A stretch of 64,000 nt of DNA. Origin: a virus. The stretch spans positions 1 to 64,000 of the IMG/VR virus record IMGVR_UViG_3300017917_002740; one strand, given 5' to 3'. The translations under genes were made by a program, and so were the position numbers. Under the pieces are notes generated by a model that saw only the letters and a list, made by a program, of their open reading frames with translations, was not told where the DNA came from and searched no databases. Numbering within the stretch: position 1 is the first letter of the stretch; every line of letters begins with the position of its first letter. Shown here piece after piece: positions 1 through 62,915 of the stretch.

Positions 1-255
1 ACCTTGACCATTATACAGCGACTCGAGCCATCGTTTGAATTGGATGAATTCGATGTCCCTGTCATTGTGTTGCACACTGATCCACACCCTGAAATGAAAG
101 ATGTGGCGATGAGGGTGACCCAAAAACGATACGTCATATTCATCTCCTGTAGCTAAATTGGGATCTGTAAGAGCCGCAGGATATTTATGAATGCCTTCCT
201 TGCGGAAAGTAACCCAAATCATTTTGTTAGGACGGATATCCTGTCTAATAATCAT
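1..255 (-). CDS. Conserved phage protein of unknown function (partial, C-terminus beyond window)
   Basis: An open frame runs leftward from an ATG at 255 to the window edge without a stop (85 codons seen). Its start overlaps the stop of the upstream gene as ATGA. The visible protein begins MIIRQDIRPNK and contains a His-rich stretch (GHPHRHIFHF). It resembles small conserved proteins of T4-like marine phages, but I know no function. Translational coupling to the next gene is likely. Confidence 0.7.
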   Translation of the reverse strand, partial: MIIRQDIRPNKMIWVTFRKEGIHKYPAALTDPNLATGDEYDVSFLGHPHRHIFHFRVWISVQHNDRDIEFIQFKRWLESLYNGQG

Positions 256-476: not shown

Positions 477-817
477 CTCATACTCTCCATAGTAATAATT
501 TTACCAAGTTCTGCACCTAAATCTTTATCTTCAGTGATCACATACATTGAACTATTATTTTCGTCTTTGCGTCGATCATAAGTGCGTGTTTCAATTACAA
601 AACCACCATTGGCTTTGAATACAGTAAACCGCATGCCTTCTGAATCTAAACTCGGGACTTCATGAATAGCAAGAGGAATACTATCATAATCCTCTTCGTC
701 CATTAACCAATTACGTATTTTCTGTTTTAAACTTAGTTTCATTTTTCTTGCCTTGGGTATTGTTCGAGACTGTTTAGCAGATCTTATTGATGCAACTGTT
801 ACTCTGCCGTTACTCAT
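473..817 (-). CDS. Hypothetical protein, 114 aa, basic N-terminus
   Basis: The first 30 residues are very basic and are followed by a mixed alpha/beta-looking domain. There is no recognised motif. ATGA overlaps at both ends place it inside a tightly coupled operon of small proteins. Confidence 0.65.
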   Translation of the reverse strand: MSNGRVTVASIRSAKQSRTIPKARKMKLSLKQKIRNWLMDEEDYDSIPLAIHEVPSLDSEGMRFTVFKANGGFVIETRTYDRRKDENNSSMYVITEDKDLGAELGKIITMESMR

Positions 818-1341
818 TTTATAATTTCATCCTTGCCATATTGATCCCAATCAGTAAATCGATCTCTACCCATTAAGTCCTGTAAGTTATGGCACCAAAC
901 TCCAGGATTGGTTGCTGCAAAATCTTTGTCATCAATTTTAAGTGTAGCGTTGTAGCCTAATTGTTTTACATAAGGTAATTTTACACTAATCTGCGGAATA
1001 AATCTACGATATTCTATTAGCGGACTTTCCAAAAGACCTTCTGTTTCACGAACATCGAAGTCCAAAGTACACCAAAAGTCTGCTTCCAAACAGGCTTTGA
1101 TCATCTTTTCCCAAGGAGTCCATCCTACAACATCATCAGCGCCTTCTGTGTGAAAACTTTGATTAGCACCAAAATAGATATGATTACACTCTTTTTCTTT
1201 GGTCAATGCAATAATTTTATCTGCATCTTGAACACCCACTACAAATAGAGTTTTCATTCCGTATGCAGGTGTGTGTTCAATCTCTGTGCCTACAAAAAAC
1301 GTAATGTCTGATGCTACGCCAGTGTTATAATCTCGTTTCAT
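814..1341 (-). CDS. Conserved phage hypothetical protein, 175 aa
   Basis: Soluble alpha/beta protein. Features include a segment (TLFVVGVQDADKII) that looks like a beta-strand/helix unit, and conserved-looking Trp-rich positions near residues 97-113. Proteins of this kind recur in T4-like marine phages near replication genes, as far as I recall, without a known function. It is coupled by ATGA overlap to both neighbours. Confidence 0.7.
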   Translation of the reverse strand: MKRDYNTGVASDITFFVGTEIEHTPAYGMKTLFVVGVQDADKIIALTKEKECNHIYFGANQSFHTEGADDVVGWTPWEKMIKACLEADFWCTLDFDVRETEGLLESPLIEYRRFIPQISVKLPYVKQLGYNATLKIDDKDFAATNPGVWCHNLQDLMGRDRFTDWDQYGKDEIIK

Positions 1342-1673: not shown

Positions 1674-3215
1674 TTATTCAGCAACTATTTCTTCTTCTAA
1701 GGCACGTAATTCGTCATCATCAGGGTTACTAAAATCAATCTCATCTTGACGAATTTCTTCTACTTCAAATAAACTACCAAATGTATTCTGTGCAGGACCA
1801 CCTTGTAATCGTGAACCTTCAAGGGTTTTTAAGAAACCTGCAGCGTCTGAAATTAATTGAAATGCTTCTGCTTTGGTTTTAGTATTGAATAGCTCTTCAA
1901 CAAATGTAGCAAAGTATAGAATTCTATTAGGAACCCAATCGCTGTATTCGATCTCTTTCTTGCCTTCGACACCTTTCATGCGCCAGTCGGGCTTGTGTTT
2001 AGCAGTTTCAATGTCCATAAGTTGTTGAGCACGTTGTACCGCAACAATATGACATTCAACATTATGGCCCATCATTAGAGCATAAGCAAAGCTATCCCAA
2101 GAAGTTTTACCTTCTTTGCCGATCTTGTTTAACATACCAGGAGCATACCAACAGATATCACCCATAGTTAAACGACTTGCAGTTTCACTGGCAAACGGAA
2201 ACGGTATGTCGCTCTTAGCCAATGCCTTGTTATCCGGAGCCTTGTCCATGATCACTGACCAACGCTTGTTTGTGTGTTGTGCATTGGTGTAAACAAGACC
2301 GTGTGCTGTAGCAATAAACGGTGATGCACAATCGAAACTAATAGTAATATCTGGATTAATGTGTTTGCGGATTTGTCTTTGAATCAAAGTTAGATAACAT
2401 GACCAATCAAGTTGTGCAGTACCCAAGAAGTGCATCCAGTTTTTACCTGTAAGCATACCTTCATCACGCATGGTCATTAGGCGTTTAAGTGTAATATCCA
2501 TCTTACACATGTTTGCGCCACCCATGGCCCAACCTTCTGCTTCCTTGCCAGCATACTTGCCTTTAGGGTCACTAAACTCTTTGACACCCTCATACCAACG
2601 TTCGGCAGTATCCCAGTCTGATCCTTGCAGAACGTTGAGCCACTTGGTCTGTCCTAAGCGGTTGTTTAAGAAATAGTCGTTGTTGAAACGAGTCTTTTCG
2701 AGACAGTCTTCAAATGTTTTTAATCCAGTCTTTGGACTATGGATATGATCACAGGCCCATGTCGGCACGTCCAGCATCATAGACCAATCAGCAGTTAATT
2801 CTAACCATTCAAGAATCTTTTGTCGAGTTTTATTAGCTTCGGCACCTTCGAAGTTTAACCAATCAAATTTAAGAACACCTTTACCGATCTGATAACCACC
2901 GGAGTCACCTAAGATCATTGTAGCATTACGATCACGTTGCTGGATCATAGATTCTTGTGTAAGACTCTTATTGAGATCTAACTGTGCGTGACCTGCTGAA
3001 TACAGACCGTATTTGTAATAGAAGTATCCTTGTTCTGGATTTAAGAAATTCATACCCTCGATTCCGCGATCAAATCCTTTAGGAATACGTTCTTGTGGAA
3101 TAAATTCTTCTAATCTTTGTTTTGCAATATAAGTGCTATAGAAAGAACTGATTGCAGGCAAATAGACTGCATAATCTTTCTGTAATGGTGTTAGGTCAAC
3201 TGGTTGTTTGCTCAT
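1674..3215 (-). CDS. dpdA: tRNA-guanine transglycosylase-like protein, probable DNA 7-deazaguanine transglycosylase (DpdA-like)
   Basis: 513-aa protein with the TIM-barrel signatures of the TGT superfamily. It has DSGGYQ at residues 104-109 (TGT DSGGFQ, general Asp), LDVPTWAC near 149-155, a glycine-rich MGGANMC near 231-237, and SFDCASPF with Asp295 (TGT FDCVLPTR, the nucleophile). TGT enzymes exchange guanine for a 7-deazaguanine base. The phage branch, DpdA, acts on DNA. A tRNA substrate cannot be excluded. The C-terminal zinc site of bacterial TGT is not obvious, which is closer to DpdA. QueC-like and QueD-like genes elsewhere in this window could supply the base. The gene sits downstream of the clamp and overlaps its upstream neighbour by 20 bp. 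Confidence 0.75.
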   Translation of the reverse strand: MSKQPVDLTPLQKDYAVYLPAISSFYSTYIAKQRLEEFIPQERIPKGFDRGIEGMNFLNPEQGYFYYKYGLYSAGHAQLDLNKSLTQESMIQQRDRNATMILGDSGGYQIGKGVLKFDWLNFEGAEANKTRQKILEWLELTADWSMMLDVPTWACDHIHSPKTGLKTFEDCLEKTRFNNDYFLNNRLGQTKWLNVLQGSDWDTAERWYEGVKEFSDPKGKYAGKEAEGWAMGGANMCKMDITLKRLMTMRDEGMLTGKNWMHFLGTAQLDWSCYLTLIQRQIRKHINPDITISFDCASPFIATAHGLVYTNAQHTNKRWSVIMDKAPDNKALAKSDIPFPFASETASRLTMGDICWYAPGMLNKIGKEGKTSWDSFAYALMMGHNVECHIVAVQRAQQLMDIETAKHKPDWRMKGVEGKKEIEYSDWVPNRILYFATFVEELFNTKTKAEAFQLISDAAGFLKTLEGSRLQGGPAQNTFGSLFEVEEIRQDEIDFSNPDDDELRALEEEIVAE

Positions 3216-3570
3216 GTTCTCTCGCTAATTTTGCCGTGATATCTAATTGTTTACGTGCCTGTTCTGCATTGTCTAATGCTATTTTAACAGCCTTATTCGT
3301 TTTTGCCAAACTTTCCCAAGCCAATTCTTCATCTCGCTTCTTACGTGCCCAATCAAGCAAGGATTCTGCTTCGTCGTTTAACCCGATTTTAGCATAATCC
3401 ATATTGAGCATAATCCAAGCAGTACCATCGAATACTTCTATGCATTGATTGGAAGTATTAAAACGCATATTGCCAACACCTTGGGCGCCGGCATATCCGT
3501 TAACATAAGTGCTTGATGCACTGGACGAAACATTCATGTAACGTCCAGATTGTGTGATGCCTTTGATCAT
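3196..3570 (-). CDS. Hypothetical protein with fibre-like N-terminus and helical C-terminus, 124 aa
   Basis: Residues 30-55 (GVGNMRFNTSNQCIEVFDGTAW) resemble the repeat-like motif found in phage fibre or tail proteins. Residues 60-124 are predicted to be a long charged helix. The gene lies between the clamp (1-bp overlap of stop and start) and dpdA. Its role is unknown; a virion protein is a guess based on the N-terminal motif. Confidence 0.6.
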   Translation of the reverse strand: MIKGITQSGRYMNVSSSASSTYVNGYAGAQGVGNMRFNTSNQCIEVFDGTAWIMLNMDYAKIGLNDEAESLLDWARKKRDEELAWESLAKTNKAVKIALDNAEQARKQLDITAKLAREHEQTTS

Positions 3571-4307
3571 TAGGCTGCCTGAGCTGGAATGATGTATTTG
3601 TAAGTAGCTAAGCCGCTGTCTAAAGTAATCTGGATAGCACCTTCGTTACTTAGACTCATCTTTGTGTTGTTGACATCTGCAATCTTAAGAATGCTCAAGA
3701 TTGGCAGTACTGGCCATGTCCAACCGCGATCAAGTTTACCTGCCACGTTCTGCGCAAATACAAATTCACCACCGTGTGTTGAAGCATCACCAAAAATAAA
3801 CTTTAGATTTCCACCATCAGTCTTTGCTAAGAAAGTTGGATGTTCATTATTGGCACCTGCTTGGAAGTTGAAACGCTGAACAGAAGCTACGCTTGGTTCA
3901 ATCTCAACATCCCACTTAACACCACGGAACTTAACAGTCTTCATCTTTTCGTTGATGATTTCCTGATTCATAAAACGATAGTCGTTCTTAAAGTCGCCGT
4001 CTTTGTTTTCAAAGTGAATACCTACAGGCACAGTTTCGCCATTGCGTTCTGCTGTGGTAATACTGATCTTGGCATCTTCTTTGTACTCTGAACCATCAAG
4101 TAGATACTTTAATTTTTGTAGTTGCGGCATACCAAATGTGCCCAACATATCAGGATAAGGGTTAGCAGTTGTGGCTTCCATGATCACTGAGCGATCATCT
4201 GCCATAGAAAAAATGCTGGTGCCTTCTTCTGTGCCTGTTACTTTAACAGTTGTTAGGAAGCCTAAGTTTTGTGTGTGGCTTACGATGTCTTGTAAAATGT
4301 CTTTCAT
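3570..4307 (-). CDS. 45: DNA polymerase sliding clamp (gp45-like)
   Basis: 245 aa, close to T4 gp45 (228 aa). It is the processivity ring for the phage DNA polymerase and, in T4, the mobile activator of late transcription. The sequence fits the gp45 family: an N-terminal DILQDIVSHTQNLGF helix, a central acidic domain and a C-terminal Ile/Tyr-rich strand ending in YIIPAQAA. It lies directly downstream of the DNA polymerase gene. It has its own early-type promoter and a GGAGA ribosome site, so it can be made in excess of the polymerase. Confidence 0.9.
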   Translation of the reverse strand: MKDILQDIVSHTQNLGFLTTVKVTGTEEGTSIFSMADDRSVIMEATTANPYPDMLGTFGMPQLQKLKYLLDGSEYKEDAKISITTAERNGETVPVGIHFENKDGDFKNDYRFMNQEIINEKMKTVKFRGVKWDVEIEPSVASVQRFNFQAGANNEHPTFLAKTDGGNLKFIFGDASTHGGEFVFAQNVAGKLDRGWTWPVLPILSILKIADVNNTKMSLSNEGAIQITLDSGLATYKYIIPAQAA

Positions 4308-4361: not shown

Positions 4362-4377
4362 CCTTGAAATCACTCAA
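4347..4377 (-). terminator. Hairpin at the end of the polymerase gene (possible attenuator)
   Basis: An 8-bp perfect stem (TTGAGTGA, 4347-4354, with TCACTCAA, 4370-4377) encloses a 15-nt loop and includes the polymerase stop codon. There is no U-run downstream, so it is a weak or non-intrinsic terminator. The clamp promoter -35 box lies in the loop. Confidence 0.4.
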
Positions 4378-7036
4378 AATCAAATAATTTTGAGAATGTA
4401 TTGTCCGACCTTGTTGAACTGATGTCCCATTCCAAAACACCAATAAGGTTTTCTAATTTTTCATCGATAACCGTATTTTCCATCTCAGCATCGTTGAATG
4501 GTAAGTCTTTGAACCATTGTGGTAAACGTAGTTCATCTACAGGATAAGCCACTGAGGTATAACCCATAGGATTGTCTTTGACCTTACAGACAATGACCTT
4601 GGCTCCGTCTGTGATACTCATTGAGTATTTGTCATCCATCATCCGTTTGAGCGTATTCCAATTAAGACTTGCTCTAACGTGCCCTGGCATATTAGCTTTG
4701 CCTGCTTTCTTTTCTTTGGCAGCATACTCAGTAATATTGTTGGCACGTTTAGGCGAACCTTTCTCCCAACCAGGGCGTGTTTTAAATTCAGTGCGGAAGT
4801 TGGTAATGTATTCTAATACCTGTTCTTTTTCTGCACCATTAAGCACCTGTGTCAGTACTTCACTTAAGAAGTCTTGGATAACAACCGGGGTATCTGACCG
4901 CTTGAGGTCGAGCCCCATGGCCTTGATCTTGCCGCCTTGCCCGTCTGTGTCTGCTCGCTTTCCTTCTTTGTCGTAGTAGAGTACGGCATATCTTTTCTTA
5001 GTAATGAACAAACCTTTTGATGCGACAATTTCTCTTCCTGCTTTGATAACATCTCCTCTGGTCTTTGGACAGTGGAAGCTATCTTGCATGAATTTAACAA
5101 AGGTTTCATTTACAGTTTCTCCTATGGTATCGTAAAGTTCAATTACAGATTCTCTGGTCCATGGTAATGCACCAGAATCGATATCTTTTTTCAGTGTCTT
5201 ATAAGCTGAAAAATAGCAGGAGTCTGTGTCGCCATAGATAATAGCTTTACCTACGTGATCATACTCGCCTGTGATAATTTCATTTACTTTGGCAGCCATA
5301 TGCTTGGCAATCTGTCTACCAGTAAGAGTTGTTGACTGTCCGATTCTGTTGTCAAAGAAACGACAACCAGGGTTAAGAATAGCACCGTACAAACTGTTCA
5401 AGTTAATCTTCTTAACCAACTGACGTTTGTCCCAGTATTCTTCTTCTACTTTGTTACCTGCTTTGATACATTCTTTAAGTTTGGCCTGCATTTCTTTACG
5501 TTCAGCATACCAACGCTTTAACAGTCCAGGAATAATACCTTCTCTTTCATAGGTAAAGATAGTACCGTTAGCACTGAGCATCCATGGTTGATTGTTTTCA
5601 AAAATTAAATCGTAAATCTGTGCGGCGCTGAGTGTGTCACTACCGCCATCTTCCCAGTCAACAGTAATTTCTCTGCCAGCTTCACGGTTCATAACAGCAG
5701 TATATTCAAGACTACCGAACACTCCTTCCCAGGCAGATGCAAATGATTTACCTTTGGCCTGTTCAGCGGCAATAAAGTCTTTGGTGCCATCTTGACGTAG
5801 TTGACCCACGATAGTCTCTGGGCCCATGTTAAGGGCACGAATCGCAGAAGGATACAGTGAGTTGATATCTAACGAACCGATCCATTCATGGATACCTTTC
5901 TTTGGAAATGCCACATACGCACCTGCAGCCTGCGTGTCAAGTCCTTCGCGATTAACACGATTAGGTACAATCATGCCACGCTTGTGAGCTTCATTGATAA
6001 TGGCCTGTTCAGTTACAGCCACAGCACCCATAGTAGTCTGTAGCAATACTGTACATTCATGCGCCAGTGTGTTAGCAAGGTCCATGAACTTGAGTTTTTT
6101 ATCTAAGTCGTCAAGCAGTTGACAGTCTTGTCTGTTATATTCAATAAACTTTTTAAAGTCATTGTTATAAAGTTGATCAAGTGTGCCTTCATACTGTGTC
6201 TTTCTTTGACCTAATTCATATTCTGCAATAGCATCTAATCGATATGTATGACGTTCTTCATAGGTGTACTTGCGATACAGTTCGAGACTGTCAAGATGCA
6301 CACGACCTATAAAGTCATAGGTCACAGCAGTTTTGCCATACTTTTCATATTCACGTTTCTTGGGAAATTGATTCCATAAGCAAAAACGTCTTGTATCTTC
6401 TTTGCTTAGGACTTTGGTCACACGATTAACTGTATATGGAATATCAAAGCCTTCTGAGTTCCAACCGCTTAGTACATCTGCATCTTCAATTAAGTCGAGG
6501 AAAGTATCTAACATGTCTGCTTCGTTGTTGAAAAGCATGGTATTTGGGAATTCCTCCACCATTCTTTTACCTTCCTCCATGCTGACAGTCTTAGGAGGAA
6601 TAGCCAAACAGACCATAGTGTTTAACCACTGTAAGTGAACAGCAATAGCAGTGATAGGCATAAACGCATCTTCTGGTGATGCATAACCACGTTCTGGGTC
6701 GAAGTCGACCTCAATATCGAAAAACGCTACATTTAGTTTAGGTGCATCTTGATTAAGATAATGATCTTCAAGACAGCGATAGATGGGGTTAATATCTGAT
6801 TCGTAAAGTTTCTTGTTGCTGTGAATGGCTAATTCTTTGCGTAGCTCTTTGACATTCTTACAACTTACACGAGTAAGCGGCTCGCCTTTGATTGATTGAA
6901 ACTTACCTTTGGGATCAGAATAGTAAAATAGGTGTTTGGCAGCATATTCTTTATAATGCCTCTGCCCTTTGTTATCACGCTCAACGACACGAATAAGGTC
7001 ATTGTCGCGATCATAGAATGCGTCAACGTAACTCAA
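4370..7036 (-). CDS. 43: DNA polymerase, family B (gp43-like)
   Basis: 888 aa against 898 for T4 gp43. All expected motifs are present. ExoI is FDIEVD (D107, E109), ExoII GWNSEGFD (N193-D198) and ExoIII YNRQD (Y300, D304). Motif A is DINSLYPS (from D390), motif B KKINLNSLYG (542-551) and motif C YGDTDS (601-606), followed by a KKRY motif. The last residues, ending LFDFE, look like a clamp-binding tail. The protein should replicate phage DNA with proofreading, together with gp45 and gp44 in this window. The start is a TTG at 7034-7036, preceded by a strong AGGAGA; no ATG is nearby. Confidence 0.95.
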   Translation of the reverse strand: MSYVDAFYDRDNDLIRVVERDNKGQRHYKEYAAKHLFYYSDPKGKFQSIKGEPLTRVSCKNVKELRKELAIHSNKKLYESDINPIYRCLEDHYLNQDAPKLNVAFFDIEVDFDPERGYASPEDAFMPITAIAVHLQWLNTMVCLAIPPKTVSMEEGKRMVEEFPNTMLFNNEADMLDTFLDLIEDADVLSGWNSEGFDIPYTVNRVTKVLSKEDTRRFCLWNQFPKKREYEKYGKTAVTYDFIGRVHLDSLELYRKYTYEERHTYRLDAIAEYELGQRKTQYEGTLDQLYNNDFKKFIEYNRQDCQLLDDLDKKLKFMDLANTLAHECTVLLQTTMGAVAVTEQAIINEAHKRGMIVPNRVNREGLDTQAAGAYVAFPKKGIHEWIGSLDINSLYPSAIRALNMGPETIVGQLRQDGTKDFIAAEQAKGKSFASAWEGVFGSLEYTAVMNREAGREITVDWEDGGSDTLSAAQIYDLIFENNQPWMLSANGTIFTYEREGIIPGLLKRWYAERKEMQAKLKECIKAGNKVEEEYWDKRQLVKKINLNSLYGAILNPGCRFFDNRIGQSTTLTGRQIAKHMAAKVNEIITGEYDHVGKAIIYGDTDSCYFSAYKTLKKDIDSGALPWTRESVIELYDTIGETVNETFVKFMQDSFHCPKTRGDVIKAGREIVASKGLFITKKRYAVLYYDKEGKRADTDGQGGKIKAMGLDLKRSDTPVVIQDFLSEVLTQVLNGAEKEQVLEYITNFRTEFKTRPGWEKGSPKRANNITEYAAKEKKAGKANMPGHVRASLNWNTLKRMMDDKYSMSITDGAKVIVCKVKDNPMGYTSVAYPVDELRLPQWFKDLPFNDAEMENTVIDEKLENLIGVLEWDISSTRSDNTFSKLFDFE

Positions 7037-10361: not shown

Positions 10362-10685
10362 TTATACCGAAAAACTACTACCACAACCACAGGTAGTTTG
10401 TGCGTTGGGATTTTTTATAATGAATTGACTACCTTGTATATCTTCTTTATAGTCAATTTCAGCACCTGTTAGATACTGCATGCTCATAGCATCAACAAGG
10501 ACTTTCCAACGGCCGATGTCAAATTCAAAATCGTCTTCGTTTTGTACATCATCAAATGTAAATCCATAACTAAACCCAGAACACCCGCCTCCTTGAACAA
10601 ATGTTCTAAGTTTTAGATTAGTATTATTTTCTTCGTCGAGCAGATCTTGTATCTTTGTTCTTGCTGATGGACTTATCGAAATCAT
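10362..10685 (-). CDS. A-type iron-sulfur cluster carrier (ErpA/HesB-like)
   Basis: 107 aa, the normal length of the family. The three invariant cysteines are visible: C35 in GGGCSGFSY, and C99 and C101 in [10 protein letters not shown]-type carriers accept Fe-S clusters and pass them to target enzymes. This copy is clearly different from the second A-type protein at 46819, and closer to ErpA/HesB by its [11 protein letters not shown] motif. The gene lies in the accessory cluster and is coupled to the 66-aa gene by an ATGA overlap. Confidence 0.9.
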
Positions 10686-29726: not shown

Positions 29727-30188
29727 ATGGATATACACGCAGATAAAGACTTTTGGACCACATTAAAATGGCCTGCAGCTCCTAATTTAGAAGATTATAG
29801 GGTATTTGAACAATATTGCTCAGGACGTGTTCTTTTATTAGGCAGTACAAAATTACTGCTACCGTTATGTGCAGAGGCTTGGGATTTAGAGCCAAAATAT
29901 GATAATCCTAAGATTAAAAATCGAGACTGGTTTACTTTAGACGAATATTTTGATACTATACTAATAGACGGTGGATTATCATTTGGAGAAAAGTTTTGTA
30001 AGGATCTGCTTGAAGTTGTGCTGCCCAACTGTGATCGTTTTGTTGCCCGTGTTTTTCTAAACCCTAACTGGCCCACAAAGTATGCCTGCTATTTTCCACG
30101 AGCAGACGAACTTACCCCACAACCTATAGAACATCCTATTAACGAAGTTTATACATTTTATATATGGAACAACGAAAAACAATCTTAG
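29727..30188 (+). CDS. Methyltransferase-like conserved phage protein, 153 aa
   Basis: The order RVLLLGSTKLLLPLC, then WDLEP, then YFDTILIDGGLSFGEKF and LLEVVLPNCDRFVARVF resembles strands of a class I SAM-dependent methyltransferase fold, although the canonical GxGxG loop is degenerate. Catalytic activity is therefore uncertain. The gene overlaps the QueC-like gene by 25 bp, so both are translated from one plus-strand mRNA. A link to base modification is possible. Confidence 0.5.
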   Translation: MDIHADKDFWTTLKWPAAPNLEDYRVFEQYCSGRVLLLGSTKLLLPLCAEAWDLEPKYDNPKIKNRDWFTLDEYFDTILIDGGLSFGEKFCKDLLEVVLPNCDRFVARVFLNPNWPTKYACYFPRADELTPQPIEHPINEVYTFYIWNNEKQS

Positions 30189-30757
30189 CCATGTACTCTG
30201 GCGGACTCGATAGTTTGGGCATGATATACAAACTCTTAACTGAAGAGCAATATAAGGACTATGATATACACATTCATCATGTTCATAATAAGAATGTAGA
30301 AAATCGTTGGCGGGCAGAGCAACTGGCAGTGGATTCAGCACTACAAGAATTACGCCGATTAGGATTTAAGTTTGTTTACAGTGAAAGCGAAATAGGGTCA
30401 CCGCCGTTTGGCAAATATTTCTTATTTGACACAGACACCATGAATTTCTTTGCGGGTTATGTTGCTTCAGTAAATCCCAATATTAAAAAAGTTGCCATGG
30501 GCATGCAGGCCAACGATGGCAATCACAGTTTGGAAGATCGCCGAGTACGAGGTAATAAAATTCTGTCAGCGTTCACTGATGCGGAAAAGATCTATCCTGT
30601 ATTATATATGACCAAGCGTGAAATTTATGATCTGCTACCACAAAGCCTGCGTAACATTTTCTGGAGTTGCCGTCGCCCTGTTTATTTAGAAAACAGTATC
30701 ACACCCTGTAAAAAGTGTGATACCTGTGTCAAGTTACGAGATCAAGGTATTCGTTAA
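30164..30757 (+). CDS. queC: QueC-like 7-cyano-7-deazaguanine (preQ0) synthase
   Basis: 197 aa (bacterial QueC about 230). N-type PP-loop ATPase motif SGGLDS (12-17) and a C-terminal zinc site of C169, C182, C185 and C188 (SCRRP, then PCKKCDTCVKLRDQG) match QueC. QueC converts carboxy-deazaguanine to preQ0 with ATP and ammonia. With the DpdA-like and QueD-like proteins of this window it suggests a 7-deazaguanine pathway for DNA. The middle part is divergent from bacterial QueC, so another PP-loop specificity is conceivable. Confidence 0.75.
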   Translation: MEQRKTILAMYSGGLDSLGMIYKLLTEEQYKDYDIHIHHVHNKNVENRWRAEQLAVDSALQELRRLGFKFVYSESEIGSPPFGKYFLFDTDTMNFFAGYVASVNPNIKKVAMGMQANDGNHSLEDRRVRGNKILSAFTDAEKIYPVLYMTKREIYDLLPQSLRNIFWSCRRPVYLENSITPCKKCDTCVKLRDQGIR

Positions 30758-46541: not shown

Positions 46542-46829
46542 ATGTTCTTAAAGATAGAAATTCAAGAAAATCAATATACAAGACGCAGTAAATGCGGTGT
46601 TGAACACAATTTTGTTAGAACAAAAACTGTGGCTGTTCTTCGTTGTGATAATTGCGATGAAACTTTTTATAGAGATCTAAAACATATGGATCGTAAGAGA
46701 CTCAGCAACAATTATTTTCATTGTTGTAAAAATTGTGATCCTAAGAAATTTGCTCAACGTAAAGGAGTTGAGCAGAAAAAAATATGGGATATGCCTGCCA
46801 GCGTAGAGCTACCAGTTTCTAAATTCTAA
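46542..46829 (+). CDS. Zinc-finger-type small protein, 95 aa
   Basis: Basic protein with paired cysteines (CDNCDETF near residue 35 and HCCKNCDPKKF near residue 61) that fit a zinc ribbon. The C2-x-C2 spacing resembles those of HNH-type or DNA-binding small proteins, but no catalytic His-Asn-His can be seen. Plus-strand single gene between two minus-strand operons, with the end overlapping the iscA stop tail-to-tail. Confidence 0.65.
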   Translation: MFLKIEIQENQYTRRSKCGVEHNFVRTKTVAVLRCDNCDETFYRDLKHMDRKRLSNNYFHCCKNCDPKKFAQRKGVEQKKIWDMPASVELPVSKF

Positions 46830-47145
46830 AACTTTCCCCGCAGCCGCAACGGTCTTTTTCAGCAGAATTACGAAATTCAAACCCTTCGTTTAGACCTTGC
46901 TTAACATAATCTATTTCTAATTCGTTGAAATAAGCCAAGTGTTTTTGATTGATATAAACACAGAAATTTTCAAATAATTTAGTATATCCGGGGTCAAGAT
47001 TAGTTAAATCATCGAGGTATTCAAGAGTATAAGCCAAACCAGAGCAGCCTGTAGTTCGTACGCCAATAGAGATTCCTTTACCTTTGCCTCTTCGAGACAA
47101 CTGTTCTTGAATTTTTTTAGCTGCTGTGCTTGTTACGGTAATCAT
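46819..47145 (-). CDS. iscA: IscA-type iron-sulfur carrier
   Basis: 108 aa with the three conserved cysteines C34 (TTGCSGLAYTLEY), C100 and C102 (DRCGCGESF). It follows iscU in the same order as in bacterial isc operons and overlaps its end by about 29 bp. It should accept or store clusters made on IscU. This is the second A-type carrier in the window; the TTGCSGLAY motif is closer to IscA, while the one at 10362 is closer to ErpA/HesB. Confidence 0.92.
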   Translation of the reverse strand: MITVTSTAAKKIQEQLSRRGKGKGISIGVRTTGCSGLAYTLEYLDDLTNLDPGYTKLFENFCVYINQKHLAYFNELEIDYVKQGLNEGFEFRNSAEKDRCGCGESFRI

Positions 47146-47503
47146 TTACTGCTGCTTTAATAGCGTCTTCTGCAAGGATAGAGCAATGAATTTTAACTGG
47201 CGGCAGTGCTAACTCTTCTGCGATTGCTGAGTTTTTGATGGTTTCTGCTTGATCAAGAGTTTTTCCTTTGAGCCACTCTGTGACAAGACTTGAGCTGGCG
47301 ATTGCCGAGCCGCAGCCATACGTTTTAAATTTCGCATCTGTAATAATACCTGTAGCATCGTCCACCTTTATTTGTAGTTTCATAACATCACCGCAGGCAG
47401 GAGCTCCTACCATTCCTGTGCCTACAGAATCGTCGCCCTTGTCAAAACTGCCAACATTGCGAGGATTTTCATAATGATCAATAACTTTATCGCTATAAGC
47501 CAT
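47117..47503 (-). CDS. iscU: IscU iron-sulfur cluster scaffold protein
   Basis: 128 aa, full length and strikingly like bacterial IscU (by eye around four fifths of residues match E. coli). All functional residues are kept: C37, D39, C64, C107 and the LPPVK motif (100-104) for the HscA chaperone. It should receive sulfur from the host cysteine desulfurase and assemble [2Fe-2S] clusters. It follows sod after one base and precedes iscA. The near-host sequence suggests fairly recent acquisition from a proteobacterium. Confidence 0.96.
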   Translation of the reverse strand: MAYSDKVIDHYENPRNVGSFDKGDDSVGTGMVGAPACGDVMKLQIKVDDATGIITDAKFKTYGCGSAIASSSLVTEWLKGKTLDQAETIKNSAIAEELALPPVKIHCSILAEDAIKAAVNDYRNKHSS

Positions 47504-47504
47504 A

Positions 47505-48062
47505 TTATACTCCTAATCTAATGTCAACAACTTCCCAATTAATAATGCGCCAAATGTTTGCAAGATATTTGGCCTTGTCCTGTTGATAGTCTAAAGCCCA
47601 AGCGTGTTCCCAGGCATCAATTAACAGAGCAATTTTCATAGTCTTTTTGTATTCGTGATTGTGTATGGTATGTAAGTTTCCGTCGGTATCCATGTAGATC
47701 CAGTTAGATCCTTGTGCAGCCATAAACTCTTTTTCTACAGCTTCTTTGAATTTATCAAAGCTGCCATACTTATCGTCTATTAAAGATTTACTGAGCCCCT
47801 CGGGTTTATTGGCAGCTCTGGGCGGGGTCAAGTTTGCAAAGAAGATATTATGTAGCACTGCACCGCCGTAATTAAAATCAGGATCTCCTTCGCCTTTATT
47901 ATAGCGTTCCGAATATTTGGCAGCCAGCCCATCGTAATGATACTTGATAGTATCTTCACTCATTACAGGCGCAAGTTCATCTTTACCAAATTTTAGTTTA
48001 TCTTGGTAAATTTCACGTTTGTCTACGGATTCGGTCAAACTTTTAATAAAATGTAAGGTCAT
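47505..48062 (-). CDS. sodB: Fe/Mn-type superoxide dismutase
   Basis: 185 aa (bacterial SodB about 193). Metal ligands can be read at H42, H71, D149 and H153 (DAWEHAWALDYQ). The active-site Tyr is Y50, eight residues after H42 as in SodB. The C-terminal YLANIWRIINWE is typical. The helical hairpin between ligands is shortened and the usual second-shell His near H42 is replaced. It converts superoxide to peroxide and oxygen. It is the first gene of a sod-iscU-iscA operon with a late-type leaderless start at 48062. Confidence 0.9.
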   Translation of the reverse strand: MTLHFIKSLTESVDKREIYQDKLKFGKDELAPVMSEDTIKYHYDGLAAKYSERYNKGEGDPDFNYGGAVLHNIFFANLTPPRAANKPEGLSKSLIDDKYGSFDKFKEAVEKEFMAAQGSNWIYMDTDGNLHTIHNHEYKKTMKIALLIDAWEHAWALDYQQDKAKYLANIWRIINWEVVDIRLGV

Positions 48063-49541: not shown

Positions 49542-50328
49542 CTACAAATTTATCCTGAACGTCTTGTGGTTTGGGTTCGCCGTGAAACACAGTTACACAG
49601 CAGTCTGGATGCACTTCTACTGAGTGATCTGTTTCTTTGAACTGTCTTTTACCATTTAATACTACCAATTCTTCTCTACTACGTATTTCCCATTTGTAAC
49701 TTTGGATCCATTCTTTGGGCCAAAATTTTATCTGTGTCTGGCATAGTTTCCAAATCCAATCTTGATCACCTTGAAGTTTTTGAGCTTCTTTGGGATTCTC
49801 TTTAAATTTTTCCCAGATATGATGCTGAGTACCGTGATTCCAAGCCATTACAGAACTATTCAAATATTTCCATGATGCATAAAATTTTCTGTTGAAATCG
49901 TGTATTCCTAAAAATTCTGTAGGATATATTTTGGCCAACTTGTCTATGTTGTTATGAATAACTACGTCTAAGTCGAAATAAAGAATTCTTCCCCGTAATG
50001 GTAATCTTGCATCAAACATATGAACCTTATGCCACCAACCCTTTTGATATTGTGCATTAGGTTGATAAATGGTAGTAACACCTTCAATGTGATGTTGATC
50101 GTCGGTTAAACAATAAAATTCGTAGGGTACAGTAAGATGTCGCGAAACCATATTTCGCAAACGTTCTACATATTCCTTACTATATCGATTACCAAATCTT
50201 ACGCAAAGAACATTAATTTTCTCAGTGGAGTTTCCAAATAGCTCTGATAAATCTTCTGGAGAACTATTACCTTTGGCTAATCTTTTTTCAGCTTTAAGCC
50301 TGCGCTTTTCTTCTTTTGACAATTCCAT
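49525..50328 (-). CDS. Glycosyltransferase-like protein (nucleotide-sugar transferase fold)
   Basis: 267 aa. After a charged N-terminal helix, the core begins NVLCVRFGNRYSKEYVERL. The metal-binding D-x-D occurs in RILYFDLDVVI, followed by FLGIHDFNRKFYASW and a GDQDWI motif, as in GT8-like enzymes. Donor and acceptor are unknown. It could glycosylate a modified DNA base or a surface sugar. The start overlaps the end of kdsA, so the two are probably one operon. Confidence 0.75.
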   Translation of the reverse strand: MELSKEEKRRLKAEKRLAKGNSSPEDLSELFGNSTEKINVLCVRFGNRYSKEYVERLRNMVSRHLTVPYEFYCLTDDQHHIEGVTTIYQPNAQYQKGWWHKVHMFDARLPLRGRILYFDLDVVIHNNIDKLAKIYPTEFLGIHDFNRKFYASWKYLNSSVMAWNHGTQHHIWEKFKENPKEAQKLQGDQDWIWKLCQTQIKFWPKEWIQSYKWEIRSREELVVLNGKRQFKETDHSVEVHPDCCVTVFHGEPKPQDVQDKFVVDNWH

Positions 50329-51133
50329 CGATTTCTATCAGTTCTTCCAAAATGTTGTAAAGATTATCAATTTTAATCATATTAGGTCCGTCGCTGGGAG
50401 CGTTATCTGGATCTTCGTGGCACTCCATGAAAATGCCTGCAACTGATCCGGTAGCTACAGCGGCCCTCGCCAAGTAGGGTACCATCTCGCGATCTCCGCC
50501 TGAGACTGTTCCCATTCCGCCAGGCTGCTGTACAGAATGTGTTGCATCAAAGACAACGGGATAACCAGTACGTTCCATAATAGGTAAACTGCGCATGTCA
50601 ACCACAAGATTATTGTATCCATGAGTATATCCTCTTTCACAAAGCATGATGCGTTCATTACCAGTTGATGCTATCTTGGCTGCAACGTTTTTCATATCAT
50701 GCGGAGCAAGGAACTGTCCTTTTTTAATATTAATAGCTCGACCAGTATTTCCAGCAGCCAAAAGCAAGTCGGTCTGTCTGCAAAGAAAAGCAGGAATTTG
50801 TATAACATCAACTCCGGCATCTGCTATTAATTCTGCTTGATAGGATTCATGAATATCTGTAAGTACAGGAATACCAAACTCGTGTTTAATTGAATTAAGT
50901 ACCTTAAGGCCTTCATCGATACCTATTCCTCGTTTAGTTCCTATACTGCTTCTGTTGGCTTTATCGAAACTGCTTTTATAGATAAGATCAATATCTAATT
51001 TATCGCAGATATCTTTGATACGACCTGCAGTTTCTTCTGCATGATCTTGGCTTTCTATTTGACAGGGACCAGCAATGAGAAAAAATTTATTTTCATTGCT
51101 GGCAACGATTCGGTTAATTGAAAATGTACGCAT
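50294..51133 (-). CDS. kdsA: 3-deoxy-D-manno-octulosonate-8-phosphate synthase (KdsA), metal-dependent class
   Basis: 279 aa from the ATG at 51133 (MRTFSIN), which sits five bases after a late-type ATAAATA box. A 23-residue upstream extension is not translated on that mRNA. Motifs are IAGPCQIES, KSSFDKANR, IPAFLCRQTDLL, LCERGYTHGYNNLVVDMRS and FDATHSVQQPGG. C24 in GPC, H199, E237 and D248 mark the metal-dependent class. It condenses PEP with arabinose-5-phosphate to make the KDO precursor of lipopolysaccharide. It is next to a glycosyltransferase. Confidence 0.93.
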   Translation of the reverse strand: MRTFSINRIVASNENKFFLIAGPCQIESQDHAEETAGRIKDICDKLDIDLIYKSSFDKANRSSIGTKRGIGIDEGLKVLNSIKHEFGIPVLTDIHESYQAELIADAGVDVIQIPAFLCRQTDLLLAAGNTGRAINIKKGQFLAPHDMKNVAAKIASTGNERIMLCERGYTHGYNNLVVDMRSLPIMERTGYPVVFDATHSVQQPGGMGTVSGGDREMVPYLARAAVATGSVAGIFMECHEDPDNAPSDGPNMIKIDNLYNILEELIEIDGIVKRRKAQA

Positions 51134-51138
51134 ATAAT

Positions 51139-51145
51139 TATTTAT
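51139..51145 (-). promoter_or_regulatory. Late-type promoter giving a leaderless mRNA for kdsA
   Basis: Minus-strand ATAAATA, then ATTAT and the ATG at 51133. The box overlaps no ribosome site. It sits just before the end of the queD-like gene and decides the kdsA start. Confidence 0.65.
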
Positions 51146-51155
51146 GCGGAAATTT

Positions 51156-51641
51156 TTAACCTTCGTAGGTTGCTGAGTTAGCACCGTGTTCAAATACTTC
51201 AACAGATTTAATACGCACAGTTGGATTGATTGGATAGCGCATATTTCCTCCGGCTAATAGTTCAGCCATCTTGTCGAAGCACAATTTAGCAAACATTTCG
51301 CAGCCAACAGCCGGAACAATTCGTAGATCGCAGATGCCGCTGTCATTAAAGCCACCTTTGATTTCATTTAACTGTTTGAACAGTTCTAAATGAGGATCAT
51401 CTTCTGCAACAACTAAGGTGTGATCAAACATGTAATCGGCCCAAGTTTTAAATTCCTTAAGACCACCAAAGTCCATACACCAATTTTTGTCATCTAACGT
51501 ATCGCACTCAAATATAAGTTTGATGCCGATCGAGTAACCATGCAGCGTCGAGCAATGACTGTGAGTGGCACGCCATTGTCTAAAGCAGCAACTCAGACCT
51601 CTGTCGTTGCCATATGTTTTTGTTGAATAAAATTTCGCCAT
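51156..51641 (-). CDS. queD: QueD/6-pyruvoyl-tetrahydropterin synthase-like protein
   Basis: 161 aa of the T-fold PTPS/QueD family. The catalytic Cys is C30 (SHCSTLHGY) and zinc-type His are H27 and H34. The third zinc His of LHGH is Tyr (Y36). Downstream motifs CMDFGGLKEF, FDHTLV with H74, and IKSVEVFEHG are in place. QueD makes carboxy-tetrahydropterin, the precursor of 7-deazaguanines. This phage-type sequence (FRQWRATHSHC) is common in marine phages. It has CAGGAGG before the ATG. A PTPS role on a different pterin is possible. Confidence 0.8.
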   Translation of the reverse strand: MAKFYSTKTYGNDRGLSCCFRQWRATHSHCSTLHGYSIGIKLIFECDTLDDKNWCMDFGGLKEFKTWADYMFDHTLVVAEDDPHLELFKQLNEIKGGFNDSGICDLRIVPAVGCEMFAKLCFDKMAELLAGGNMRYPINPTVRIKSVEVFEHGANSATYEG

Positions 51642-59324: not shown

Positions 59325-59996
59325 TTACTCCTTGGCAATTAAACTGTCAGTCATTGGGAATATAGCAGCGATGGCTTTGGCGCAGGCCAATGCCACCAGT
59401 TGATGTTCTTTCTGTGTTCCATTACCAGAACGTAGTTCAATAAAATGTACCCACGAACGAAGTGTTCCGTTCATATACAATCGACTTTCAATAAGTCCTT
59501 CTGGTAGCACAGCACGAGCCTGTTCTTTAGCTATGCCCTTAGCGATAGCCCATTCGTAGGCACTTCGTGCATAATCGATGACCTGTTGTTGCTGTCGCTC
59601 CCAATCTCTCTGTAAGCGTTCATCATCCGTTTCGACACTGTTCTGTCTGTTCTTTGGGTCTTGAAGTCGTGCTTCTCGCAGTACAAACGAGAGGTCTTTA
59701 ACAGGGTCAGCATATCGCTGACTGAACTCTTGGAATGAGAAACTTCTGTGTCTGAGAATCTGTCTTGCGATATCTCTTGTGGTTGTGATTTCCACACAGG
59801 CTGATACCATTTCAAGGGGTGACCAGTGTGCGTGTTTAACAAGATATCGTATAAGCTTCTCTGATGTCTCTGTATTGAGCTGGTTTGATGGGTTTGAGAC
59901 ACGGGCGCAATACGCAATGAGTTCCTGCGCATCGTCGATGCCCAGATTTGCAAATTCCACTGTGGGTTGGGAGTAAGAGACCAAGCGAACATCCAT
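59325..59996 (-). CDS. thyX: FAD-dependent thymidylate synthase ThyX
   Basis: 223 aa with the ThyX signature RHRSFSFQEFSQRY (82-95; R-H-R-x7-S) and the flanking SPLEMVSACVEI. C-terminal part includes GTLRSWVHFIELR. ThyX makes dTMP from dUMP using FAD, NADPH and methylene-folate, supplying thymidine for phage DNA. AAGGAAGCATA precedes the start. It is downstream of a small gene coupled to it. Confidence 0.95.
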   Translation of the reverse strand: MDVRLVSYSQPTVEFANLGIDDAQELIAYCARVSNPSNQLNTETSEKLIRYLVKHAHWSPLEMVSACVEITTTRDIARQILRHRSFSFQEFSQRYADPVKDLSFVLREARLQDPKNRQNSVETDDERLQRDWERQQQQVIDYARSAYEWAIAKGIAKEQARAVLPEGLIESRLYMNGTLRSWVHFIELRSGNGTQKEHQLVALACAKAIAAIFPMTDSLIAKE

Positions 59997-60862: not shown

Positions 60863-61963
60863 ATGAATACCTATACGCAAATTGAACCTTTTGGTACACC
60901 GCATTTTCAAATTACCTGGGAAGCTACTTTAAAATGCAATTTGGATTGCAGCTATTGTAGCCCCAATGATCACAACAATAAGATACCTCATCCAAAATTA
61001 GAGGACTGTCTTAAGACTGTAGACTTTCTTTTGGAATATGTCGATGTGTATATGCAGAACAAAAATCCTGCTCATCGAAATGCAGGCTTCAATGTGTTCG
61101 GCGGTGAAAGCCTTTTCCATCCAGACATTGTAGAAATACTGACTTACATTAAAGAACAGCATAAAAAATACGAACATCGCTGGACTATGGCAGTGCAGAC
61201 TGTGACAAACGCTGTAGTCAAAGAAAAAATTTGGAAAGAAATTGTTCCTTTGATTGATTACTTCACTGTAAGTTATCATAGCGAAGCAACCGTAGAACAG
61301 CAAGATTTGGTAAGACAAAATTTATTAATGCTGAAAGCAAACAACAAAAGATTTACCTGTTCTATATTGATGCATGCAGGACGATGGGACAATTGTCAAA
61401 GCATGATACAATGGTGCAAGGACAACGATATTCCTCATCTTCCAAGACAGATAGATCACAGTTGGCATGATCTAAAATTTTGGTATAACAAAGAACAAAC
61501 ACAATGGTGGAATGAACATAGAGGTATTGACACTGACATTCCCCTACACAAAAAAATTATCAATATCGTAAATTTAGACAGTCAAGGTCGTAGCTGTTGT
61601 GGAGGAACTGAGCTAAGTGTTAATGGTAATACTTCTTGTTCACAGACATACATACCAGGTAATAATTTTAAAGGCTGGAGTTGCAGTGTAAATTACTTTT
61701 TTGCCTATGTAAAACAGGTGACCAAAGAAGTATTTTTAAACAAAGATTGCATGATGAACTTTGACGGCAAAGTAGCACCTATAGGAACTGTAGATCAAGG
61801 TGCTGAAATCATAGCAGATCTAAAAAGAAATTTTGCCAACAATACTATGCCTGTGGTTACCTGTGCCAAGTCTAAGTGCTGGTGTGGATTGTGCGCTCCT
61901 AAGGCGCACGACAGATCGACTTTCGATACTATGATGGAAAAGTATGTCACAGATACCGTTTGA
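60863..61963 (+). CDS. Radical SAM protein with C-terminal Cys cluster (SPASM-like), 366 aa
   Basis: The radical SAM motif CNLDCSYC (C25, C29, C32) is followed by a (beta/alpha)6-type core with a FGGESLF glycine motif. The C-terminal 120 residues hold further cysteines (SCCGG, WSCS, KDCM and CAKSKCWCGLC), as in SPASM/twitch domains with auxiliary Fe-S clusters. Such enzymes make peptide maturation, sugar or cofactor modifications. The substrate is unknown. It starts a plus-strand cluster with a second radical SAM gene and two SGNH-like genes; iscU/iscA in this window could supply its clusters. Confidence 0.85.
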   Translation: MNTYTQIEPFGTPHFQITWEATLKCNLDCSYCSPNDHNNKIPHPKLEDCLKTVDFLLEYVDVYMQNKNPAHRNAGFNVFGGESLFHPDIVEILTYIKEQHKKYEHRWTMAVQTVTNAVVKEKIWKEIVPLIDYFTVSYHSEATVEQQDLVRQNLLMLKANNKRFTCSILMHAGRWDNCQSMIQWCKDNDIPHLPRQIDHSWHDLKFWYNKEQTQWWNEHRGIDTDIPLHKKIINIVNLDSQGRSCCGGTELSVNGNTSCSQTYIPGNNFKGWSCSVNYFFAYVKQVTKEVFLNKDCMMNFDGKVAPIGTVDQGAEIIADLKRNFANNTMPVVTCAKSKCWCGLCAPKAHDRSTFDTMMEKYVTDTV

Positions 61964-62915
61964 TAAAATAATTAGATTCGGTCAACAGACAATGTTAGAC
62001 ACTGATTTATTTTCAGTAAGCTGGATCCTGGGTAGATTCTGTAACTACAAGTGTTCATATTGCTGGCCTTATGCTCGTACAGATAAACCAGATCACTATG
62101 AGCTTGAAGTTTATCAAAGAACCATAGATGAAATTAAAACACAGTCTCGAGCAAATGGATTTACAAGATTTCATTGGAGTTTCAGCGGAGGTGAGCCCAC
62201 AGCTTATAAACAATTTTTAGAAGTTGTTCGTCATCTTGACGACGGAGCAATAACACCCTATCAAAGCATACACATGACTACCAATCTTTCGCCCGGAACA
62301 AAGTGGTGGAAGTCTTGGTGTCAAGCCACAGAAGTATTACAGCGTAGAAGCATCACGGCCAGCTATCATGCAGAACATGCCAAAGAAGATGAGTTCGGAG
62401 ACAAGTGTCTAAAACTAATGAATGAAAATGTCTTTGTCACAGTTAATCAAGTTATGGTTCCTGATCAGTTCTATGAAACTTTAGAACGCTGCTATAGACT
62501 AAAATCCAGAGGAATAAATGTAACTCTAAAACCACAGAGCGATCCTACTGCCAGTTTTGTAGTCAGTGGCTACACCGATGAAATGCTAAGGATAATGCAA
62601 GAAGAATTCCAGCAACAGGTCAAGGGTGAAAATCTTTACCAAATTAGACTGTCAGACGGTACGCAAGATTATTATATAGATCAAGCAGAAAGATTCAATG
62701 CTTTTGGTTTTAACCGTTTTCAAGGTTGGAGTTGCAATAGTGGCTATCAAAGTGTTATAATTAGAGAGAATGAGGTTAAAAGATCTTACAGTTGCCACGA
62801 TAAACCTTTAGGAACTCTAACTGAAGGGTTTAAACTTTTCGAGCAACCAGCAAAATGTATTACTCCGAGCTGTGTAAGTTCGGCAGACAGCAAGGTACCA
62901 AAAAGTAAAATATGA
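61944..62915 (+). CDS. Second radical SAM protein, 323 aa
   Basis: CNYKCSYC motif near residues 33-40 is followed by a FSGGEPT glycine motif and a core with KPQSDP and GYTDEML. The C-terminal part has FQGWSCNSGYQS, SYSCHDK and AKCITPSC, again SPASM-like. It overlaps the first radical SAM gene by 20 bp and the SGNH gene by ATGA, so the cluster is one mRNA. The two proteins are related but clearly different. Substrate unknown. Confidence 0.85.
   Translation: MSQIPFDKIIRFGQQTMLDTDLFSVSWILGRFCNYKCSYCWPYARTDKPDHYELEVYQRTIDEIKTQSRANGFTRFHWSFSGGEPTAYKQFLEVVRHLDDGAITPYQSIHMTTNLSPGTKWWKSWCQATEVLQRRSITASYHAEHAKEDEFGDKCLKLMNENVFVTVNQVMVPDQFYETLERCYRLKSRGINVTLKPQSDPTASFVVSGYTDEMLRIMQEEFQQQVKGENLYQIRLSDGTQDYYIDQAERFNAFGFNRFQGWSCNSGYQSVIIRENEVKRSYSCHDKPLGTLTEGFKLFEQPAKCITPSCVSSADSKVPKSKI

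Follow-up and report, generated by a model that had tools for sequence, protein, structure and literature searches.

A distant DpdA relative encoded beside phage replication genes

Does this phage replace guanines in its own DNA, and if so, which base takes their place? The window, by which we mean the whole 64-kb stretch of DNA analyzed here, is the first part of an IMG/VR record of 94,389 bases. An earlier note had proposed that a 7-deazaguanine DNA-modification pathway is spread over three of its open reading frames, one DpdA-like (1674–3215), one QueC-like (30164–30757), and one QueD-like (51156–51641). All three frames are present, and their strands are now set (minus for the DpdA-like and QueD-like frames, plus for the QueC-like frame). 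The features that bear on the question are the following.

1..255, minus: small zinc T-fold (QueD-like) protein, denoted TF; first 85 codons, cut by the contig end
473..817, minus: 114-aa protein in the same gene string as dpdA; homologue in the related contig L003, no match in Pfam
814..1341, minus: 175-aa protein conserved beside dpdA in close relatives; homologues in L003 and L053, no match in Pfam or PHROGs
1674..3215, minus: predicted DpdA-like DNA guanine transglycosylase, 513 aa; structure model, PDB matches, profile comparison, and invariant residues
3570..4307, minus: probable sliding clamp, upstream neighbor of dpdA; read from sequence and position, no match in Pfam
4370..7036, minus: family B DNA polymerase, neighbor; gene order shared with relatives
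30164..30757, plus: PP-loop QueC-like protein, judged outside the pathway; motifs missing, not conserved
51156..51641, minus: QueD-like 6-carboxytetrahydropterin synthase, 161 aa; HSHCxxLHGY variant of the metal motif

Relatives of the DpdA-like protein are encoded by at least 530 IMG/VR stretches. Across 26 clusters at 65% identity, D104, D149, G228, H262, and D295 (the nucleophile) are invariant and Q197 is mostly retained; given these relatives and the invariant catalytic residues, the gene is not a chance open reading frame. The two motifs that had first drawn attention to it, DSGGYQ at residues 104–109 and Asp295 within SFDCASPF, are both borne out by the translation. A Pfam TGT search of the record, Pfam and PHROGs scans, and HMMER against the PDB did not detect a relation to TGT; because sequence searches were blind to it, fold and profile comparisons were needed. 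An AlphaFold model built from 25 relatives (mean pLDDT 79, pTM 0.83) matched 48 PDB entries at E ≤ 1e-3, every one a TGT (best 2e-7), and the next match, an unrelated protein, had an E-value of 7e-3. TM-scores to TGT were moderate (about 0.40 by query and 0.52 by target), values in line with distant homology interrupted by insertions. Viral matches of the protein include the DpdA2 of Vibrio phage nt-1 (E 1e-10), and an hhalign profile comparison against DpdA2 proteins gave an E-value of 4.8e-8, with the DSGG, LD.P, QG, H.LG, and SFD/SYD motifs in register. The earlier note had named, beforehand, a TGT-type zinc site as a feature that would count against a DpdA-like protein. We looked for CxCxxC...H after the nucleophile and found none (the only cysteines are at 155, 171, 237, 273, 296, 355, and 388), and the DpdA-like reading stands.

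With both a TIM-barrel fold and the catalytic and substrate-pocket motifs, the 1674–3215 protein is a member of the TGT/DpdA superfamily; judged by sequence, it forms a subfamily of its own whose kinship to DpdA2 is distant. The DpdA2 of nt-1 (Hutinet et al. 2019, PMC6884629) and its relatives in phages ACP17 and X1 likewise have a TGT fold and the DSGG and Asp nucleophile motifs, and their genes likewise lie next to FolE, QueD, and QueE genes. The link between nt-1 DpdA2 and the window protein comes from profile comparison and not from tblastn, which gave no match even at E 10; moreover, nt-1 has QueC and lacks the glycosyltransferase and TF described below. A search with the DpdA-like protein itself gave no Campylobacter or archaeal matches at E 10; DpdA3 and DpdA4 reportedly come from Campylobacter phages and archaeal viruses. 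Named homologues are hypothetical proteins of phages PA5oct, Paride, MIJ3, Callisto, Phosso, and Vibrio 2.275.O.

The order polymerase–clamp–dpdA is common to the window, PA5oct, and Vibrio 2.275.O, with homologues of the 3570..4307 protein directly upstream of dpdA in both phages. The substrate of the DpdA-like protein is very probably DNA. A role in modifying tRNA or protein, as for the TGT-family Cap10 of type IV CBASS, would suit the TGT fold, and a TGT-family enzyme has been reported in protein deazaguanylation (PMC11996544); we regard such a role as highly improbable given the missing zinc site, the closeness to DpdA2, the fact that in several phages the gene comes after those for DNA polymerase and clamp, and the lack of a Cap9-like partner with the right motifs.

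FolE, QueD, and QueE probably supply the operon, and QueC is missing

The QueD-like T-fold protein fits the pathway as the earlier note had suggested: it matches PF01242 (3e-15) and phrog_2389 (4e-37), and in alignment it keeps C30, D73-H74, E115, and E151. We take C30, D73-H74, and Glu to be its catalytic residues, as in QueD. In this protein and its relatives, HSHCxxLHGY replaces the usual metal-binding H...LHGH motif.

FolE and QueE had been reported missing from the window, correctly, and we found neither in the rest of the 94-kb record. The closest relative, a 163-kb contig (L003) whose DpdA-like protein is 96% identical, is collinear with the window up to the window's last bases. Downstream from its dpdA, on the same strand, L003 encodes a 174-aa protein, a 114-aa protein, TF, a glycosyltransferase (GT), and FolE, followed by a phosphoribosyltransferase, a HIT protein, QueE, and a 5'-3' exonuclease. 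Because the window's contig ends first, we infer FolE, QueE, and GT of its phage from collinear relatives; the genes for FolE and QueE are probably located shortly beyond that end. The TF fragment at 1–255 is an open frame that matches the TF family HMM at 2e-42; the earlier note did not mention it, although TF and GT are what most sets this operon apart. FolE and QueE were each found in 14 of 17 related records, several of which are fragments. In some QueE proteins (L003:17661-18515, L083:10451-11323, L085:16409-17308, and L269:10861-11754) the third cluster Cys seems displaced, with CxxxC followed after ∼40–50 residues by CDS, compared with CxxxCxxC in the QueE of ACP17 and Phosso. The DpdA-like genes of relatives are encoded alongside FolE, QueD, and QueE, and DpdA-type guanine exchange fed by these enzymes is strongly supported by fold, active-site conservation, and gene neighborhood.

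The QueC step fared differently. Canonical QueC carries the motifs YxQxHxxE, VPxRN, and YPDC and a C(x)8CxxCxxC zinc motif (PMC13329287). The protein at 30164–30757, to which this step had been assigned, has a PP-loop, a C4 end, and a weak QueC family match (PF06508, 8e-5). By eye, its translation contains none of the three catalytic motifs, and the cysteine spacing in SCRRPVYLENSITPCKKCDTC is 12 instead of 8. No homologue was found in any of the 16 related records searched, and the gene's neighbors are structural genes, at a distance from the operon. With the canonical motifs missing and no conservation, we rejected it as the QueC of the pathway; a Cap9- or QatC-like role was set aside as well, since their motifs are likewise missing. 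That the phage encodes a complete preQ0/G+ type pathway with this protein as QueC is thus very hard to credit, despite its PP-loop, C4 end, and family match. Moreover, PA5oct, Phosso, and ACP17, whose genomes are complete or near-complete and contain the same operon, gave no true QueC, and the one match in X1 was partial and fell short of the curated cut-off. With this search, QueC was detected in nt-1, 2.275.O, PhiXhv-12, and all control genomes. Of the pathway first proposed, guanine exchange fed by FolE, QueD, and QueE survives, and the QueC/preQ0 part does not. Without a phage QueC, the phage-encoded route should therefore stop at 7-carboxy-7-deazaguanine (CDG), barring a contribution from the host.

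A second QueC-like PP-loop protein (246 aa, Cys-rich end) is encoded farther along the record, within a run of radical-SAM genes (L001:8085-8825, minus strand; record about 71,584–72,324). Its QueC match is very weak (Pfam E 0.03, PHROG 9e-5).

A glycosyltransferase and a T-fold protein accompany the QueC-less operons

The GT of the relatives' operon, which in the window's phage would lie past the contig end, is GT-B/GT4-like. Its E-x7-E motif is kept in 272 of 273 sequences and RxxPEK in 270 of 273, and its Pfam matches to Glycos_transf_1 are weak. The GTs of L003 and PA5oct are 42% identical. In PA5oct the gene directly follows dpdA, which is about five to six genes upstream of QueE, and the cluster also contains a short NAD-epimerase-like gene. 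The PA5oct DpdA-like protein (EST35_0316; also in Paride, MIJ3, and Callisto) is 43% identical to that of the window and has GT and TF adjacent; like the window's lineage, PA5oct has no QueC, but its FolE and QueD lie elsewhere and gene order differs. We considered and dropped the idea that GT is akin to queuosine mannosyltransferase, as Pfam and the PDB support nothing beyond generic GT4 proteins. The alpha-GT and beta-GT of T4 are likewise GT-B type enzymes paired with a DNA base-modification operon, but they gave no match to GT in family or PDB sequence searches, and they are linked to hydroxymethylcytosine genes, whereas GT is linked to deazaguanine genes.

The model of TF is a T-fold (pTM 0.82) with QueD/PTPS as best PDB matches; hhalign against QueD was weaker (P 1.4e-4, probability 52%). 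TF shares with E. coli QueD (4ntk) and the QueD/PTPS family the fold, the HxH motif, and a conserved Glu. H23, H49, and H51 are invariant, and H23 would correspond to the first zinc ligand of QueD. Unlike QueD, TF has neither the Asp-His pair nor the catalytic Cys, whose region holds Leu in 26 of 26 sequences.

A scan for distant GT relatives yielded 80 IMG/VR loci, 40 of which span at least 15 kb. Every one of these 40 encodes TF and DpdA (39 of the window's subfamily and one DpdA2), 39 encode FolE, 34 QueE, and none QueC; a reversed-protein control gave 0 matches. dpdA and GT occur together in 72 loci; in every one of them they share a strand and dpdA comes first, with a median gap of 1.7 kb. 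Conversely, where at least 5 kb downstream was available, GT is present in 43/43 close and 39/46 further dpdA loci; the seven without it fall in the Phosso-like branch, and Phosso itself has GT elsewhere. GT was also found in 15 of the 17 related records. Phage locus counts are not independent because of shared ancestry; what is independent in the association comes from the isolate lineages and from there being two DpdA subfamilies. GT was present in 19 of 50,697 phage records. Of these, 11 are PA5oct-like, two are ACP17, and Phosso and X1 account for one each; the other four (PhiXhv-12/15/16 and Ep032) matched distantly and in part. Coverage reached at least 80% in 15 records, which come from the PA5oct-like phages, Phosso, ACP17, and X1, and all four of these isolate lineages carry DpdA, FolE, QueE, and TF. 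Gene order varies: queD-folE-x-DpdA2-GT-TF-queE in ACP17, folE...GT-DpdA2-TF-queE in X1, and TF-GT-x-folE...queE in Phosso, with dpdA elsewhere. GT and TF are absent from the scanned stretches of the QueC-bearing phages nt-1 and 2.275.O, and the search of the whole collection found no GT in them either. In Vibrio 2.275.O, the dpdA-like gene lies by QueF, a Vut_1/YhhQ transporter, QueC, and FolE.

In Xanthomonas phage PhiXhv-12 (L270, 5669–8903), genes for Gat-QueC, for a deacetylase whose annotation reads GlcNAc-malate type, and for a distant glycosyltransferase stand in a row. We did not count this glycosyltransferase; the row is perhaps another sugar-bearing deazaguanine system.

A candidate route to a sugar-bearing 7-deazaguanine

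What was computed (the TGT fold, active site, gene association, QueC absence, and GT motifs) is best explained, as we hold with moderate confidence, by a QueC-less CDG route with DpdA insertion and GT decoration. Phage FolE, QueD, and QueE would make CDG by a route without QueC; DpdA would swap guanine in phage DNA for CDG or a TF-processed form; GT would add a sugar, before or after the base is inserted; and the sugar-bearing 7-deazaguanine would shield the DNA from host nucleases. The entry base is probably CDG rather than preQ0, and whether the sugar is placed on the base we consider evenly balanced. Protection from nucleases may be expected by analogy with the modifications in PMC6884629. 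We would tentatively go further and suggest that a sugar-bearing, CDG-derived base, made by a QueC-less route with either DpdA subfamily, TF, and a dedicated GT, is a widespread, apparently undescribed DNA hypermodification; just as tentatively, its reach might take in hundreds of large phages and islands of alphaproteobacterial genomes. Several points weigh against the QueC-less CDG route with GT decoration. The carboxylate of CDG is its only handle, and glycosyl esters are labile; the acceptor of GT is putative; preQ0 could come from a host QueC; and in PhiXhv a distant glycosyltransferase lies beside Gat-QueC.

In one alternative, host QueC turns phage CDG into preQ0, which DpdA inserts, while GT serves a surface glycan or another base. 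We think this unlikely. QueC is common in hosts and host participation is discussed in PMC6884629, but such help leaves unexplained a pattern seen across four isolate lineages and two DpdA subfamilies, in which GT and TF accompany DpdA operons that lack QueC, as well as the absence of both from QueC-bearing DpdA phages. A shade less likely again, TF could be a CDG decarboxylase, possibly the predicted DpdL, with DpdA inserting plain 7-deazaguanine and GT decorating something else or a further intermediate. Cui et al. are said to have predicted DpdL as a CDG decarboxylase in 2023. TF is akin to QueD and retains the His triad and Glu but not the catalytic Cys, features consistent with such an activity, as is the absence of QueC; the tight linkage of GT is not accounted for.

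The sugar-decorated CDG route resembles the canonical dPreQ0/dG+ pathway of phages 9g and CAjan (PMC6884629) in that FolE, QueD, and QueE feed DpdA, and differs from it in having no QueC or Gat-QueC and an extra GT and zinc TF. Known phage 7-deazaguanine modifications differ by small groups at position 7; four more 7-deazaguanines were reported by Cui et al. 2023, according to its title as cited in PMC12783734. The literature searched, with the full Cui et al. 2023 lying outside it, holds no report of a sugar-bearing 7-deazaguanine in phage DNA and no mention of DpdL together with deazaguanine. If true, such a base would bring deazapurines and glycosylation, two known anti-restriction strategies, together in one modification and would account for operons without QueC. 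It would also be relevant to the cultured phages PA5oct and Paride, in which the genes are annotated as hypothetical (EST35_0316 among them); the literature searched contains no report of DNA modification in PA5oct.

Related loci in bacterial genomes and other cargo of the record

GT was also found in 17 contigs of GTDB genomes, including Shimia, Sulfitobacter, Magnetospirillum, Azospirillum, and Pelagibacterium, and 16 of them have a DpdA gene of the window protein's family. This pairing suggests that a DNA-marking system might exist in bacteria. Some of the MAG contigs that carry FolE/QueE could belong to phages instead. Several bacterial loci have Vut_1 (YhhQ-like) beside GT, or TF and QueD in the gene string, and tyrosine recombinase and sensor-kinase genes lie near several. 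In L358, L357, L366, L360, L369, L359, L361, and L363–L365, the GT-DpdA pair occurs with a short conserved tyrosine recombinase, a MASE1-like sensor kinase, and a Vut_1 or QueD gene, and these loci are possibly a mobile DNA-modification island. A CoiA-like nuclease gene is just upstream in two Magnetospirillum loci.

The record carries further cargo. Window positions 60863–62915 and the rest of the record (L001/L002; 63,500–94,389) appear to encode a long series of radical-SAM-like proteins, of which several end in a SPASM-like Cys-rich stretch, along with 2-oxoglutarate-oxygenase-like and aminotransferase-like proteins, an unusual load for a phage. Elsewhere in the window, at 10362–10685, 46819–47503, 47505–48062, 50294–51202, and 59325–59996, are putative IscA/IscU-like, superoxide-dismutase-like, KdsA-like, and ThyX-like proteins.
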